This document shows, piece after piece, positions 44,778 through 50,112 of a stretch of 64,000 nt of DNA. The notes under the pieces were generated by a model. It was not told the origin of the DNA. It was given only the letters and a program-made list of their open reading frames with translations, and did not search any database. A program made the position numbers and the translations under genes. Source of the DNA: Psychroflexus planctonicus (lineage in GTDB: Bacteria; Bacteroidota; Bacteroidia; Flavobacteriales; Flavobacteriaceae); the NCBI RefSeq assembly GCF_014640195.1, contig NZ_BMGM01000007.1, positions 1 through 64,000 on the forward strand, in the 5' to 3' direction. How positions within the stretch are numbered: position 1 is the stretch's first letter; each line of letters starts with the position of its first letter.

Positions 44778-45209
44778 TTATTTATAATAGGTCAACTCTC
44801 TAATGTCTTCATAGAAAGCGCTTGTTCGTTCAACCAATAAATTGACTAGCTTTTGTACATCTTCAGGATTGATATGTTGAATATTTATTAGATGAACTTT
44901 AGCATTTTCTGTAATAAGCAATTGATCTACTTGATGTTCTATTTTAGTAATGCCATCAAATTTTAAGTTGATTTGCGATGATGTATTAATACGAATACTG
45001 ATTCGATTAGAATTGTATTGCACATAAGCTTTATACCAAAAATTTCGTGTAATCAAACTTACCGATAATACAGTTGAAAAAATATAAAATAGATGGGCAT
45101 ATTCACTTTCCCTAAACAGAATAAATGAAGCAATAAGTAAAACTGAAACACTCAATACAGGTATATAATACCATTTGGAGTAAAGGTTATCGAAATGAAT
45201 GTTTTTCAT
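44778..45209 (-). CDS. Small two-helix membrane protein, unrecognised
   Basis: A 143-residue protein with two N-terminal membrane helices (about 15-32 and 39-56) and a cytoplasmic or periplasmic tail of mixed strand-helix character (about 60-143). No family is recognised. The start is ATG at 45209; a TTG three codons upstream is less likely. A complete promoter with a 16-bp palindrome precedes it, so it is probably regulated on its own. Confidence 0.65.
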   Translation of the reverse strand: MKNIHFDNLYSKWYYIPVLSVSVLLIASFILFRESEYAHLFYIFSTVLSVSLITRNFWYKAYVQYNSNRISIRINTSSQINLKFDGITKIEHQVDQLLITENAKVHLINIQHINPEDVQKLVNLLVERTSAFYEDIRELTYYK

Positions 45210-45225
45210 AAATAACAATTAAATT

Positions 45226-45257
45226 CAAACTTATTACTTGTTGTGTAATTACACAAA
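45226..45257 (-). promoter_or_regulatory. Promoter with overlapping 16-bp palindrome
   Basis: Minus strand: TTTG (45257-45254), 20 bp, TAAGTTTG (45233-45226), 17 bp before the membrane-protein start. The perfect palindrome TTGTGTAATTACACAA at 45241-45256 covers the -33 box and spacer, as a repressor operator would. Confidence 0.6.
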
Positions 45258-45473
45258 TAATTCATTGTTTCCTGATGTATTCGTTAGTTGCTGATATTTA
45301 AAATTGTTTGTTTGATATTTCGAAACACTAAATTGAATATTTATGCTAAAAAATACAATTAGAAACATTAAAAGAGATTTAATAAAACAAGAAATTAAAT
45401 CGGAAATCATATTATCCCATTGCTATAAAAGGCAAGCTCGACCCTGATTTTTTTAAATCAAGGTTAAGTTCAA

Positions 45474-47531
45474 CTAATACGCTAACAATTCCTGAATTTT
45501 CACTTTTACTTTTTCGGTACTCGGAATCATGGTTTCTTCTAAAACTGAATTCAACGGAATGGCAGGCATATTTTCGGAACCGATAGTCATTACCGGCGCA
45601 TCTAAATGCTGAAAACATTGTTCTTGAATTTTTCCACTTAAAGCACGAGCAAAGGAATTATCGGAAGGTTCTTCGGTAACTACCAAACACTTCTTGCATT
45701 TCTTCACCGATTTCATGATGGTTTCTTCATCTAAAGGATGTAGTGTACGTAAATCTACAATTTCAATTTTATCTTGTAATCCGAGTTCCTGCGAAGCATT
45801 CATCGCCCAATGCACACCCATTCCGTAAGTAATTATACTAAGTGTTTCGTGCTCATCTTGCGGCCAAATTTCTTGTAAAACCCAAGCTTTGCCAAATGGC
45901 AAAATGTAATCTTCTGCGGGTTCAATACTCGTTGCACCTTTGGTTCCCGGCACTTTGCTCCAATATAAACCTTTATGTTCGAAAATAACTACTGGATTAG
46001 GGTCGTGATACGCTGCTTTTAGCAAACCTTTTAAATCGGCTCCATTACTTGGGTAAGCGATTTTGAGTCCGCGAATGTTGGTCACTACACTTTCTACAGA
46101 AGATGAATGATAGGGTCCACCACTTCCGTAGGCGCCAATTGGCACCCGTAAAATCATAGAAACAGGCCATTTTCCGTTAGATAAATAGCAACTTCGGCTT
46201 ACTTCGGTAAACAATTGATTGAGTCCTGGCCAAATGTAATCGGCAAATTGTACCTCAACAATTGGCTTTAAACCAACCGCCGACATTCCTACAGTAGAAC
46301 CCACAATAAAAGCTTCCTGAATGGGAGTGTTAAAAACCCGATGATCGCCAAATTTTTGTGCCAAAGTAGCCGCTTCGCGAAACACACCTCCTAATCTGCC
46401 ACCCACATCTTGACCGTATAATAGACATTCTTTGTGTTTTTTCATCAATTCTTCGATAGCGAACAAAGCTGAATCGACCATCACTACTTTTTCTGCTCCT
46501 TTTGGTGAGCGTTCTCCTATTTCTTCGGTGATTGGCGTTGGCGCAAAATCGTGGGTAAATAAATCTTCTGGTGTTGGGTCTTCGGCAGCTAAAGCTTCTT
46601 GGTAATCTTTGGCTACTTCATCTTTTACTTCTGTTTCAATTTGATCTATTTCTTGTTGGTTGAAACCATTTTCTAGTAGCTTAGCTTTTAATTTTGGATA
46701 CGGATCACGTTGACGAGACTCTTCCAAATCATCTCTATAAAATTCCATTCGCACACCTGAAGTATGGTGATTTAGCAATGGACATTTAGCGTGTACTAAA
46801 AATGGACGGCGTTCTTTTCTTACTGTTTCTAAAACTTTTTTGAATTCAGTATAAGATTCTTCAAAATCGGTTCCATCGATACTGATGGCTTCTAAACCGT
46901 GAAATCCTTTGGCATATTCAAATGCATCTTGTGCACGGGTTTCTTCAGCATTAGCCGAAATATCCCAGCCATTATCTTGTATCAGATAAATAATAGGCAA
47001 TTGTTTCAGCGCGGCCATTTGAAAAGCTTCAGCAATTTCACCTTCGGTTACGGATGCATCGCCTAATGAACAAACTACCACAGGTGCTTCACCTTGATTG
47101 TCAAAACCTGACTCCTGCTTTTCTTTGTATGAAAAACCTAAAGCAGCTCCCGTAGCAGGAATGGCTTGCATGCCGGTAGCGGAACTTTGATGTGGAATTT
47201 TGGGTTTATCATCATCGCGTAAACTGGGATGCGAATAATAAGTTCTACCGCCTGAAAATGGATCGTCTTTTTTGGCTAAAAGCTGCAACATTAAATCTTT
47301 GGGCTGCATACCGATGGCGAGCAAAATAGAATCGTCTCGGTAATACGGATAGACGTAATCTTGGGGTAAAAGTTGCATGCCTACAGCAGTTTGAATGACT
47401 TCATGGCCACGCGAAGTCGCGTGTACGTATTTGGAAACTACTTTGAAATTATCTTCGTAGAGTTCTGCCATGGCTTTTGCAGTGACTAGGTTTTTGAATG
47501 CTTTTTTTAGTAGGTTTTTGTCTAACTTCAT
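45474..47531 (-). CDS. Branched-chain 2-oxoacid dehydrogenase E1, alpha-beta fusion
   Basis: A 685-residue thiamine-diphosphate enzyme in which the alpha and beta chains, separate in most organisms, form one polypeptide. The alpha part carries the TPP/Mg motif GDASVTEG...N (157-187, the second Gly of the usual GDG being Ala); the beta part starts at about 345 (DSALFAIEELMKKHKECLLYGQDVGGRLGG). It decarboxylates branched-chain 2-oxoacids for transfer to E2. The E2 gene lies 540 bp upstream, beyond a GxxExxY gene. Similar fusions are usual in Bacteroidetes; pyruvate cannot be excluded as substrate. Confidence 0.87.
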   Translation of the reverse strand: MKLDKNLLKKAFKNLVTAKAMAELYEDNFKVVSKYVHATSRGHEVIQTAVGMQLLPQDYVYPYYRDDSILLAIGMQPKDLMLQLLAKKDDPFSGGRTYYSHPSLRDDDKPKIPHQSSATGMQAIPATGAALGFSYKEKQESGFDNQGEAPVVVCSLGDASVTEGEIAEAFQMAALKQLPIIYLIQDNGWDISANAEETRAQDAFEYAKGFHGLEAISIDGTDFEESYTEFKKVLETVRKERRPFLVHAKCPLLNHHTSGVRMEFYRDDLEESRQRDPYPKLKAKLLENGFNQQEIDQIETEVKDEVAKDYQEALAAEDPTPEDLFTHDFAPTPITEEIGERSPKGAEKVVMVDSALFAIEELMKKHKECLLYGQDVGGRLGGVFREAATLAQKFGDHRVFNTPIQEAFIVGSTVGMSAVGLKPIVEVQFADYIWPGLNQLFTEVSRSCYLSNGKWPVSMILRVPIGAYGSGGPYHSSSVESVVTNIRGLKIAYPSNGADLKGLLKAAYHDPNPVVIFEHKGLYWSKVPGTKGATSIEPAEDYILPFGKAWVLQEIWPQDEHETLSIITYGMGVHWAMNASQELGLQDKIEIVDLRTLHPLDEETIMKSVKKCKKCLVVTEEPSDNSFARALSGKIQEQCFQHLDAPVMTIGSENMPAIPLNSVLEETMIPSTEKVKVKIQELLAY

Positions 47532-47544
47532 ATTTATATATTTT

Positions 47545-47570
47545 CTCGCAAAGACGCTAAGACGCCAAGG
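47545..47570. repeat. CGCAAAGACGC-type repeat at the downstream edge of the GxxExxY gene
   Basis: Reads CTCGCAAAGACGCTAAGACG on the plus strand. The same element stands in opposite orientation at 48043-48070, on the other side of the GxxExxY gene. Confidence 0.8.
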
Positions 47571-47575
47571 CTGTT

Positions 47576-47953
47576 CTATAAATTATTTACAATTCTTGTA
47601 ATTCCATTTTTGATTAAAGGCTCATTGAAATTTATAAGTAAACCTAATTTTAGGTTGGTTAATTTCAAATAGGTTAAAACTTGTTTGGGGTGAACCATAG
47701 CAATATTTTCAACCGACTTTAATTCAATTAAAACTTTATTATTTACAATTAAATCTGCTCTAAAACCCAATTGCATTTTTAAATCATTCCAAATAACTGG
47801 AATTGATTTTTGACGCTCTACTTTTAAATTCAATTGTCTCAATTCATAATCCATAATTTCTTCGTAGACAGACTCCAAAAGCCCAGGACCTAATTCTGTA
47901 TGAATTTGATAAGCAGTATTTACAATAATTTTTGAAAGTTCATTCTCATTCAT
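47576..47953 (-). CDS. GxxExxY family protein (PD-(D/E)XK nuclease fold)
   Basis: A 125-residue protein. The name motif is present as G24-L-L-E27-S-V-Y30, and the nuclease core as RADLIVNN...VLIELKS with D67, E77 and K79, so the catalytic residues look intact. Function is unknown; these genes occur in many scattered copies in Bacteroidetes and seem mobile. The start is ATG at 47953. It sits between the E1 and E2 genes of one complex, with inverted copies of a CGCAAAGACGC repeat on its two sides, which suggests insertion into an operon. Confidence 0.88.
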   Translation of the reverse strand: MNENELSKIIVNTAYQIHTELGPGLLESVYEEIMDYELRQLNLKVERQKSIPVIWNDLKMQLGFRADLIVNNKVLIELKSVENIAMVHPKQVLTYLKLTNLKLGLLINFNEPLIKNGITRIVNNL

Positions 47954-47976
47954 AATTTTTTGCAATTTTAAAAGTC

Positions 47977-48070
47977 ATTTTGCGTCTTAGCGACCCTGTC
48001 TATGGTGGTAGGCATTTTAGCGAGGGGTCTTAGCCCTATTAAACTTTGCGTCTTTGCGTCTTTGCGTGAA
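47977..48070. repeat. TTTGCGTCTTTGCG-type repeat tract upstream of the GxxExxY gene
   Basis: A short copy (TTTGCGTCTTAGCGA, 47979-47993) and a longer triple copy (ACTTTGCGTCTTTGCG..., 48043-48070). These are inverted relative to the repeat at 47545. The longer copy runs up to the E2 stop codon. Confidence 0.8.
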
Positions 48071-48071
48071 A

Positions 48072-49397
48072 TTAATCAATTTGTTTTTCTTCCAAATAAT
48101 CCGCAATACGTCTTAAAAAACTACCTGCTAAAAATCCATCTACAATTCTATGGTCGAAGGACAAAGACAAATACATCATTTGTCTTATTTCAATTTTGTC
48201 ACCATCATCGTATTCCATAACTTCTGCACGTTTTTTTATAATCCCAGTTGCCAAAATAGCAGCTTCCGGTTGATTGATAATCGGTGTGCCCATCAAACTA
48301 CCAAAAGTCCCAACATTAGAAATGGTAAACGTACTGCCTTTGGTTTCATCGCTAGTAAGCTTATTATCTCTTGCTTTTGCTACCAATGCATTTACATTTT
48401 TAGCTAAAGTTTCCAAGTCTTTTTGATCAGTGTTTCTTACCACAGGAACAATAAGATTTCCGCTAGGTAAAGCCGTTGCCATCCCAATATGAATTTCATC
48501 TTTTACAATAATTTCATCTCCATCTAAAGACGAATTGATTTTTGGAAAGTCCTGAATAGCTTTTGTTACGGCTTGAATAAACAAGGGCGTAAACGTGAGT
48601 TTCTCGCCTGTTTTTTCCTGAAAAGAAGCTTTATTTTGGTTACGCCAATTTACCAAATTAGTTAAATCAGCTTCCACATAAGCCGTTACATGTGGCGAAG
48701 TATGTTTTGAAAACACCATGTGGTCTGCGATCATTTGACGCATGCGGTCCATCTTGATGCGCTCTCCTTGGCCTTTATCAAATTGCAAATCGGGTACTTG
48801 AAATCCAGCAGGAGTTTCAGCGACAGGCTGAGCAAATTGAGCTGGTCTTCCGTCTTCTATGTATTTAAAAATATCCGATTTCTGCAGTCGGTTGTTCGCA
48901 CCACTTGCTGGAATTCGAGCTAATTCTTCATAGCTAATGTGATGTTCTTTTGCGATTTTTTCTACTAGTGGCGAATAAAAATCCCCTCTTTTATCTCCCC
49001 TAAGGGGAGAAACTTTTTTTGTTTTGGGTGATTTTGACTTCGTAGTAGCTGGATTAGTTTGTGTTTTAGGTTCAGATGAAGACTGTTCCTTTTTTAACTC
49101 GGTAGGTTTAGCTTGTTTTTCCGAAGCGTCAATTTCTTCTAAAACAGCAATTACTTCACCTATTTTTACAATGTCTTGAGCATCATATTTGGTTTCAATT
49201 AACTTTCCTGAAAAAGGGGCTGGAACTTCATTGTCTACTTTATCTGTTCCTACTTCAACTAAAATATCGCCTTCATTAAAGTTTTCTCCTTCATTTACAA
49301 TCCAATTTAAAATTGTTCCTTCTGTAATGCTTTCTCCCATTTTGGGGAGTTTGAAATCAACTTTATTTGAAATTTCGGTTTTATCTGAATTACTCAT
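48072..49397 (-). CDS. 2-oxoacid dehydrogenase E2 (dihydrolipoyl acyltransferase)
   Basis: A 441-residue acyltransferase with one lipoyl domain (lipoylated K53 in VGTDKVDNE), a charged flexible linker (about 90-128), an E1/E3-binding domain (about 139-180, YSPLVEKIAKEH) and the catalytic domain with DHRIVDG near the C-terminus. It is the partner of the E1 gene at 45474. In the linker, residues about 128-139 (KKVSPLRGDKRG) are encoded by an intergenic-type repeat inserted in frame. Branched-chain rather than pyruvate complex is suggested by context. Confidence 0.9.
   Translation of the reverse strand: MSNSDKTEISNKVDFKLPKMGESITEGTILNWIVNEGENFNEGDILVEVGTDKVDNEVPAPFSGKLIETKYDAQDIVKIGEVIAVLEEIDASEKQAKPTELKKEQSSSEPKTQTNPATTKSKSPKTKKVSPLRGDKRGDFYSPLVEKIAKEHHISYEELARIPASGANNRLQKSDIFKYIEDGRPAQFAQPVAETPAGFQVPDLQFDKGQGERIKMDRMRQMIADHMVFSKHTSPHVTAYVEADLTNLVNWRNQNKASFQEKTGEKLTFTPLFIQAVTKAIQDFPKINSSLDGDEIIVKDEIHIGMATALPSGNLIVPVVRNTDQKDLETLAKNVNALVAKARDNKLTSDETKGSTFTISNVGTFGSLMGTPIINQPEAAILATGIIKKRAEVMEYDDGDKIEIRQMMYLSLSFDHRIVDGFLAGSFLRRIADYLEEKQID
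48980..49016. repeat. CCCCTAAGGGGAGAA-type repeat inside the E2 coding sequence
   Basis: The stretch around ATCTCCCCTAAGGGGAGA is a palindrome-bearing element of a kind normally found between genes in Flavobacteriia. Here it lies within the E2 linker and keeps the frame. Confidence 0.75.
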
Positions 49398-49426
49398 ACT
49401 TTACTTTTTCATGCTTGTACGGAAAC

Positions 49427-49449
49427 CTACCTTCCGGCATAGGCAGGGG
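49427..49449. repeat. Degenerate inverted repeat upstream of E2
   Basis: CCTACCT-TCCGG-CATAGGCAGG resembles the common Bacteroidetes intergenic repeat built on CCTGCCTGCCGGCAGGCAGG-like palindromes, now imperfect. Confidence 0.55.
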
Positions 49450-49506
49450 CGCAAAGCTGTTTTTATTTTTCATTTCTTCTTACTCTTAACTCAATCTACA
49501 AAACTT

Positions 49507-50112
49507 TCACTCATCATCTTCTCGCATAAAATTATTTAACGTCTTATAGAAATCTTCTTGCTTTGGTCGGTTTTTAGGAATTTCCCTAAGCGGTTCGACT
49601 TCTTCTAAACTTTCATGACAATCGGCTGGCAAATGCTGATATAATTTTGTTCCAGCGGTTTTCCAAGCTATCATTTCATCTGAAACTTGCTTAATTATTT
49701 TAGCTGGATTTCCCACTACCAAACTCCTATTCGGAATTTTAGTTTCAGCTTTAACAAAAGCCATAGCACCAACAACGCATTCGTTTCCAATTTCAGCATC
49801 GTCCATAATTACAGCGTTCATTCCTATCAAGCAATTTTCACCTAAATTGGCTCCGTGAATAATAGCTCCATGCCCAACATGCGCTCCTTTTTTAAGCACA
49901 ATGGACTTCCCCGGGAACATATGAACTGTACAATTTTCCTGTACGTTAACTCCATCTTCTAAAATAATTTCACCCCAATCGCCACGTATCGCAGCGCCAG
50001 GTCCAATATAACAATCTTTACCGATAATTACATTTCCAGTGACAGCAGCTTGTGGATGCACAAAGCTCGATTCGTGAATTACTGGTATGTGGTTTTTGAA
50101 TTTGTAGATCAT
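49507..50112 (-). CDS. Gamma-carbonic-anhydrase-like hexapeptide-repeat protein (PaaY/CaiE type)
   Basis: A 201-residue left-handed beta-helix protein with repeated hexapeptides (VTGNVIIGKDCYIGPGAAI, then GAHVGHGAIIHGANLGENC). Three histidines of the metal site are visible (in HMFPG, HVGHGAIIHG). PaaY is a thioesterase-type helper of phenylacetate breakdown and CaiE of carnitine use; the next gene upstream is an enoyl-CoA hydratase, so an acyl-CoA role is plausible. The start is ATG at 50112; three further codons upstream fall in a repeat. Confidence 0.82.
   Translation of the reverse strand: MIYKFKNHIPVIHESSFVHPQAAVTGNVIIGKDCYIGPGAAIRGDWGEIILEDGVNVQENCTVHMFPGKSIVLKKGAHVGHGAIIHGANLGENCLIGMNAVIMDDAEIGNECVVGAMAFVKAETKIPNRSLVVGNPAKIIKQVSDEMIAWKTAGTKLYQHLPADCHESLEEVEPLREIPKNRPKQEDFYKTLNNFMREDDE

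Follow-up and report, generated by a model that had tools for sequence, protein, structure and literature searches.

Why does a short gene of the GxxExxY family stand between the genes for two subunits of one enzyme complex, and what are the repeats that edge it in opposite orientation? The locus lies in a 64,000-nucleotide stretch of the Psychroflexus planctonicus genome (the window), where the minus-strand order is E2, arm, GxxExxY gene, inverted arm and fused E1. The original prediction held that gene and repeats may form a small mobile cassette. The features concerned are these:

48072..49397, minus strand: gene for E2 dihydrolipoyl acyltransferase, host gene upstream, outside the proposed element; intact, 441 aa
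48044..48074, minus strand: arm 5' of the gene, three 8-nt words; inverted repeat, with exact 11-mers at 48048-48058 and 48056-48066
47979..47992, minus strand: additional inner arm word CGCTAAGACGC, lying between outer arm and gene; inverted repeat
47576..47965, minus strand: GxxExxY gene, PD-(D/E)XK nuclease superfamily; PF13366 and TIGR04256 matches
47539..47569, plus strand: arm 3' of the gene, three words in opposite orientation; 11-mer at 47547-47557 exact, at 47555-47565 with one mismatch
45474..47531, minus strand: fused E1 alpha/beta dehydrogenase gene, host gene downstream, outside the proposed element; intact, 685 aa

An intact GxxExxY gene between two uncut enzyme genes had been claimed for this locus, and both parts of the claim hold. 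The GxxExxY product measures 129 aa if started at a TTG and 125 aa if started at the ATG at 47953; GLLESVY, D67 and E77-x-K79 (125-aa numbering) are present in it, and it is matched by the profiles PF13366 (E 1.7e-39; 135.3 bits, cut-off 22) and TIGR04256 (E 1.4e-41; 141.5, cut-off 35). E1, with alpha and beta fused, and E2 are both intact. No transposase domain was found in the element gene by profile search, in which PF13366 was the sole match. The family is present in 250 of 396 sampled Bacteroidia genomes. D67, E77, K79, Q91 and Y95 are all present in each of 137 complete relatives, in which the residues of the name-giving motif are nearly as constant (G24 in 136, E27 in 136, Y30 in 137). 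It should be kept in mind that these "complete" proteins exclude broken genes by construction; about 7 of 145 GxxExxY genes look interrupted by a stop or frameshift. The QxxxY motif is a mark of RecB and Cas4 nucleases, and PHROG 1706 ("CRISPR/Cas system associated") matches the protein at E 1.9e-4. Structural comparison allows no fold assignment: the predicted model is poor (mean pLDDT 66), the best Foldseek E-value obtained with it was 0.61, none of the matches, which include SSO0001, PspGI and DrdV, is significant, and the PDB holds no sequence relative.

Other roles for the gene were considered and set aside. An anti-phage defence function has only one weak PADLOC match behind it (E 0.0065). 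As to carriage by phages or plasmids, no phage record was found and all seven plasmid records are typed non-mobilizable; 20 pattern matches examined as possible viral cargo yielded no confirmed viral contig. In two other genomes the GxxExxY domain occurs within longer open frames of 591 and 606 aa (L380, at G426:C11:28050, and G177:C241:11377), and at one locus (L136) several weaker family matches stand in tandem upstream of an intact copy.

The repeats at the edges of the gene had been described as copies of a single 11-nt unit in opposite orientation. Their inversion was confirmed, with the two arms (47539-47569 vs 48044-48074) 87% complementary over 31 nt; the single unit was not, since both arms are built of three successive 8-nt words (48044-48066 and 47547-47569). 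The outer tip of the 5'-side arm, TTTCACGC, abuts and overlaps the E2 stop codon (48072-48074), and the 3'-side arm ends 7 nt ahead of the E1 start codon. Exact copies of the 11-mer CGCAAAGACGC lie at 47547 (+), 48048 (-) and 48056 (-), and one-mismatch copies at 47555 (+) and 47982 (-); the 64 kb hold no other match with at most one mismatch, and none of 100 shuffles reached this count of five. Genome-wide, the exact 11-mer is confined to the window locus, and the one-mismatch form is not clearly enriched (30 matches vs 24 for the reversed control). A longer word pattern, CRCARAGNCRCNRAG, is enriched in the source genome (30 matches vs 0 for its control), and 16 other contexts of this pattern inspected there all lie outside ORFs of at least 80 aa. 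Elsewhere in the same genome, a gene gap (G000:C17:21168-21222) contains an unbroken run of CACAAAGA words, at which neither of the genome's two GxxExxY matches lies. A second, broken GxxExxY copy (L002, G000:C5:246707-247048) has an internal TAA and arms of the ATTAGTG type.

Arms were then sought at 145 GxxExxY loci: 37 found by scanning a genome collection with the window protein, 7 from plasmid records and 101 from family searches in the source genome, its relatives and Bacteroidia. The last were mostly best-scoring matches, and the sampling is biased to close, well-scoring family members. Each locus was scored by the best inverted match between its 250-nt flanks, with 1012 same-locus windows as controls. 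The 95% control quantile was exceeded at 104 of the 145 loci and the 99% quantile at 88; without three near-duplicates (L036, L098, L192), 102 of 142 score above 14. ParE toxin genes scored in the same way gave 1 of 28 and 0 of 28 (two further loci of odd length, L237 and L251, were left out), and genes of PF05635, the S23/IVP four-helix family, gave 20 of 28 and 10 of 28. The other 41 GxxExxY loci score no higher than the 95% quantile. Among them is a Sphingomonas locus (L186) whose arms are clear and escaped the script, since scoring started from the stop codon and the right arm is within the ORF. In Sphingomonas the gene is found between fabD and fabG, with arms that are GC-rich versions of the same arms.

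The expectation that other GxxExxY genes would carry the same terminal repeats was thus met for the inverted arms and not for the word itself, which differs by protein clade and may be CGCnRAG, CACnRAG, CRCnGAT, CTAAT or CGAAT. Mapped on the protein tree, arm type requires 20 changes, against a mean of 57.9 when shuffled, and none of 200 shuffles gave so low a value (12 of the 137 proteins, which lack an arm label, and the near-duplicates were omitted). As judged by this test, the arm word goes with the protein clade. The test measures clustering, not one-to-one matching; the fit of word to protein tree is loose but clear. Arms of the same locus are also alike beyond their shared arm type: a locus's own partner arm is the best of 142 in 43 of 91 loci and among the top five in 69 of 91 (near-duplicates again left out, as in the mismatch analysis below). 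The arm period in GxxExxY elements is mainly 8 nt, then 10 and 9 (95 loci), and in PF05635 elements it is sharply 7 nt (18 loci).

Copies were compared in eight many-copy genomes, using the fetched copies only and not every copy. Up to 19 family matches occur in one genome, some of them fragments. Four paralogous pairs were aligned in full: L397/L404 (89.6% identity over 483 bp), L385/L401 (84.8% over 513 bp), L374/L411 (82.8% over 447 bp) and L427/L431 (81.9% over 443 bp). In three of the four, homology stops on either side no more than about 15 nt from the outer arm tip. The pair L385/L401 stays similar for about 45 nt beyond one arm, into outer inverted sequence, and its other arms are divergent. 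Identity over the 60 nt immediately outside the four alignments is only 18-40%. L385 carries CACAAAG words on both arms and L401, in the same genome (G066), CGCAAAG, so that the word has changed in concert. Beyond the arms of L385 lies the outer inverted sequence TTGTTACTGTTCGGGT. In a further genome (G233), one paralogous pair ends at the arm tip on its single readable side and another continues past the arm into similar host sequence. Contigs of this genome and of G379 end within GxxExxY genes, as near-identical copies would cause. No target-site duplication was recognised in the four pair alignments, in which no systematic search for one was made. On the evidence of these alignments, the unit of arm, gene and inverted arm is dispersed within genomes amid unrelated flanks. 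The suggestion of a small mobile cassette with the repeats as its ends is therefore supported, for paralogous copies in one genome share the element and not its surroundings.

The original prediction also implied that the E2-GxxExxY-E1 order would not be fixed and that empty sites would exist, and both were found within the genus, to which the survey was limited. An E1 match was present in 26 of 27 genomes and 25 junctions were readable. GxxExxY occupies 12 of these, S23/IVP (PF05635) genes 9 and repeats alone 1; the remaining 3 are empty and measure 18-55 bp. The S23/IVP genes are of two types, the ninth being recognised by its DNA likeness to one other. Eleven of the 12 GxxExxY genes at this junction could be placed in the tree: eight form one clade (100), two fall with copies from elsewhere (91) and one stands apart. 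This suggests that GxxExxY reached the junction at least twice, although a single arrival is not excluded by the starred branches alone. Remnants of IVP elements adjoin two of the 12 GxxExxY elements, in one genome as a left arm with the first IVP codons and in another as 38 nt that match an IVP right arm exactly; one of the 12 is doubtful in this respect and nine show no remnant. At the E2-E1 junction of another genome (L104, G012), a tandem duplication of the E2 end, an arm and an apparent GxxExxY start fragment was seen by eye.

A second junction, alaS-GSCFA, was surveyed across the family: GSCFA was found in 109 of 119 genomes, 30 loci were fetched and alaS was reachable in 29. The gap is 0-64 bp in 21 of the 29, none of the 29 holds GxxExxY, and one gap of 90 bp holds a gene-less arm pair. 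Nine filled loci, with which these 29 are contrasted, were known beforehand and thus preselected. As these two surveys have it, element junctions are empty or differently occupied in relatives.

Where the elements sit was examined at 138 loci for which both neighbours are available. GxxExxY runs in the same direction as both neighbours at 109, as the upstream gene only at 21, as the downstream gene only at 4 and as neither at 4; for ordinary middle genes at the same loci (n=195) the counts are 116, 47, 21 and 11. The excess of co-direction with both neighbours (109/138 vs 116/195, p=0.0002) is moderate, and the sense:antisense difference (109:4 vs 116:11, p=0.12) is weak. PF05635 genes stand in sense placement in 26 of 28 cases. 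At 79 co-directional loci with arm scores of 15 to 45, the median distance from the stop codon to the start of the left arm is 4 nt (interquartile range -4 to 25), and from the end of the right arm to the next start codon it is 14 nt (6 to 91).

The distribution of arms without a gene was followed by counting CRCARAGNCRCNRAG, single arms as well as palindromes, in 392 Bacteroidia genomes. The 247 genomes with a GxxExxY gene have 3665 matches vs 418 to the reversed pattern; the 145 without one have 135 vs 85. At least ten matches occur in 88 of the 247 gene-positive genomes and in none of the 145 gene-negative ones. The reversed control is itself somewhat commoner in gene-positive genomes (mean 1.7 vs 0.6), and the genomes are related by descent. 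Genomes whose sampled arms hold the pattern have more matches than those whose arms do not (median 27 vs 6, p=0.002), a comparison that is partly circular; sorted by sampled arm type, RAG-type vs other (36 vs 21 genomes), counts do not clearly differ (p=0.22). Among 20 stretches chosen by eye as likely pairs or arrays, 12 are short arm-spacer-arm elements, one is a complete GxxExxY element and the rest are longer pairs, same-direction arms or tandem arrays. One mini-copy (L293) lies between convergent genes. On one contig (G182 contig 2), two loci (L306, L307) consist of tandem arms with periods of about 121 bp and 52 bp. By the pattern counts, gene-less arm copies accumulate in genomes that have the gene. 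The same counts, with the shuffles of the window, refute the reading of the repeats as chance or low-complexity sequence, for which it can be said only that the words are short and which no analysis supports; it need hardly be entertained.

The GxxExxY gene and its two arms are thus probably one mobile element of about 0.45-0.65 kb, of which no excision product or circle has been seen. The mechanism considered likely, with some reserve, is that the arms and the mini-copies are substrates of the element's own PD-(D/E)XK nuclease, much as in REP/RAYT systems and by a different chemistry; nuclease action is inferred. The protein would be a nuclease with a RecB/Cas4-like QxxxY motif, for which there is no biochemistry. 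It would bind the iterated words, each serving as one contact site (no binding data exist), and cut or nick at the arms, perhaps when these are extruded as a hairpin or single-stranded (cleavage data are equally lacking). Cutting might start cut-and-paste movement, or copying by repair, and the protein may also serve gene-less mini-elements in trans, in the way proposed for RAYTs and REPs. Elements would persist mainly in sense orientation just past a stop codon, where the gene could be read through from the host operon and the neighbours remain intact. The grounds for inferring word recognition and arm cutting are that word and clade go together, that the active site is intact and that no arm-rich genome lacks the gene.

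Some other activity may still mobilise the element, a possibility raised chiefly by the shared architecture of PF05635 elements. The element could be mobile and its mover some other trans activity (host repair, switching of replication templates at hairpins, or an enzyme that also moves S23/IVP elements), with GxxExxY protecting, regulating or riding along. The E2-E1 site is also used by S23/IVP, a protein without known nuclease, so the mover may indeed act in trans; these non-nuclease elements resemble GxxExxY elements in their 7-nt-period arms, sense placement and choice of junction, and local tandem duplications occur in arms or flanks (G012; L306/L307). Such a mover is nevertheless judged unlikely, if by no means dismissed, in that it must face an arm word that tracks the GxxExxY protein clade, catalytic residues intact in every complete protein, and the lack of any gene-negative genome with ten or more pattern matches. 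Less probable still is an RNA-level element like the 23S rRNA intervening sequence (IVS), in which the arms would pair in the operon mRNA, RNase III would cut the stem and the gene would be excised, leaving the insertion harmless. Sense orientation between co-directional genes would suit this account, as would sister elements that encode the protein family of the 23S rRNA IVS. The mini-copy between convergent genes does not fit it, and arm pairing is strand-symmetric: at 102 GxxExxY loci there are 208 wobble-type vs 213 non-wobble transitions (p=0.85), and at 20 PF05635 loci 26 vs 43 (p=0.053), in the opposite direction. RNA pairing was rejected as the main reason for the arms because mismatches allowing G-U are not in excess; it is still possible as a by-product. 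An Rfam search gave a single sub-threshold match, elsewhere within 45000-50000.

It could also be held that GxxExxY is an ordinary domesticated operon gene whose repeats serve regulation or processing, with no mobility at all. Some placements are common to several species (the E2-E1 clade of eight; alaS-GSCFA), and few of the genes look split. This immobile gene is strongly disfavoured, and very improbable, given the empty sites and alternative occupants at E2-E1 and alaS-GSCFA, the nested remnants seen in two genomes, the unrelated flanks of paralogous units and genomes with many family matches, fragments included.

If the preferred reading, a nuclease acting on its own arms, is right, the element would be mobile by a chemistry unlike that of the transposases we know of and would offer a natural example of co-evolution between a DNA-binding protein and its target word. 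The GxxExxY family has so far been named only by its motif, and a cognate repeat family gives it a testable role; the link could explain many intergenic repeats of the CGCAAAGACGC and CACAGAG types. No description tying GxxExxY to such repeats was found among the papers listed by literature searches, most subscription papers and preprints lying outside the search. A link to an old puzzle, the spread of 23S rRNA intervening sequences, is also possible since S23/IVP elements are similar in build and use the same site. PF05635 genes surveyed at L155-L182, and at the E2-E1 loci L100, L101, L103, L107, L110, L112, L114, L116 and L118, often have inverted arms with a sharp 7-nt period; placed in sense at gene junctions, they are possibly a parallel mobile class. 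A broader conjecture, which may well prove wrong, is that bacteria have a widespread class of mobile elements in which a tiny ORF (for the Cas4/RecB-like PD-(D/E)XK nuclease GxxExxY or an S23/IVP four-helix protein), set between arms of iterated 7-10-nt words, moves among gene junctions. The protein would read the word, each changing with the other, and gene-less mini-copies would be carried along in trans. To this class would also belong the 23S rRNA intervening sequences and orphan heptamers such as TAACTGA.

The TAACTGA heptamers of Beggiatoaceae, Cyanobacteria and Bacteroidetes are intergenic, mostly in two to six repeats, sporadic in phylogeny and without an evident transfer mechanism; a translational role has been proposed (PMC4679880). 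Their 7-nt period equals that found here for PF05635 arms. Unlike the inverted GxxExxY arms, they are described as direct repeats, and the text of that paper contains neither "four helix" nor "S23" (PMC4679880). The 23S rRNA IVS is presented as a small selfish ORF with complementary arms, sporadic distribution and unknown role, cut by RNase III in Coxiella (PMC4990558). The present elements are like it in having a small ORF between complementary arms, and the family of its protein, PF05635, is the alternative occupant of E2-E1. They are unlike it in protein family, in occupying protein-gene junctions and not rRNA helices, and in showing no RNA-strand signature in arm pairing; the window element lies at the E2-E1 junction, has a PF13366 ORF and no S23/IVP ORF, and is not in an rRNA helix.

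Insertion sequences with their MITEs offer a parallel in combining an autonomous unit, bounded by terminal inverted repeats, with gene-less miniature copies. Unlike these, the GxxExxY element has no known transposase, encodes only about 125 aa and has iterated-word ends that vary between copies. Recombination-promoting nucleases (Rpn/PDDEXK_2) are likewise PD-(D/E)XK proteins linked to mobile elements; GxxExxY belongs to a different Pfam family, and we know of no iterated-word arms in the Rpn group. A further likeness is to RAYT (TnpA-REP), a HUH/Y1 tyrosine enzyme whose gene is flanked by its own REP type. No HUH/Y1 tyrosine transposase is encoded by the element, whose protein matches PF13366 only. 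REPs are dispersed extragenic inverted repeats, mostly gene-less, in genomes with a dedicated small enzyme gene (PMC2817692, PMC3116915, PMC3686654). GxxExxY arms, like REP/BIME-RAYT systems and REPINs, are dispersed and mostly gene-less inverted repeats alongside such a gene. Unlike RAYT, GxxExxY is of the PD-(D/E)XK type, its arms consist of short words in series, and the unit that carries the gene occurs itself at many gene junctions.
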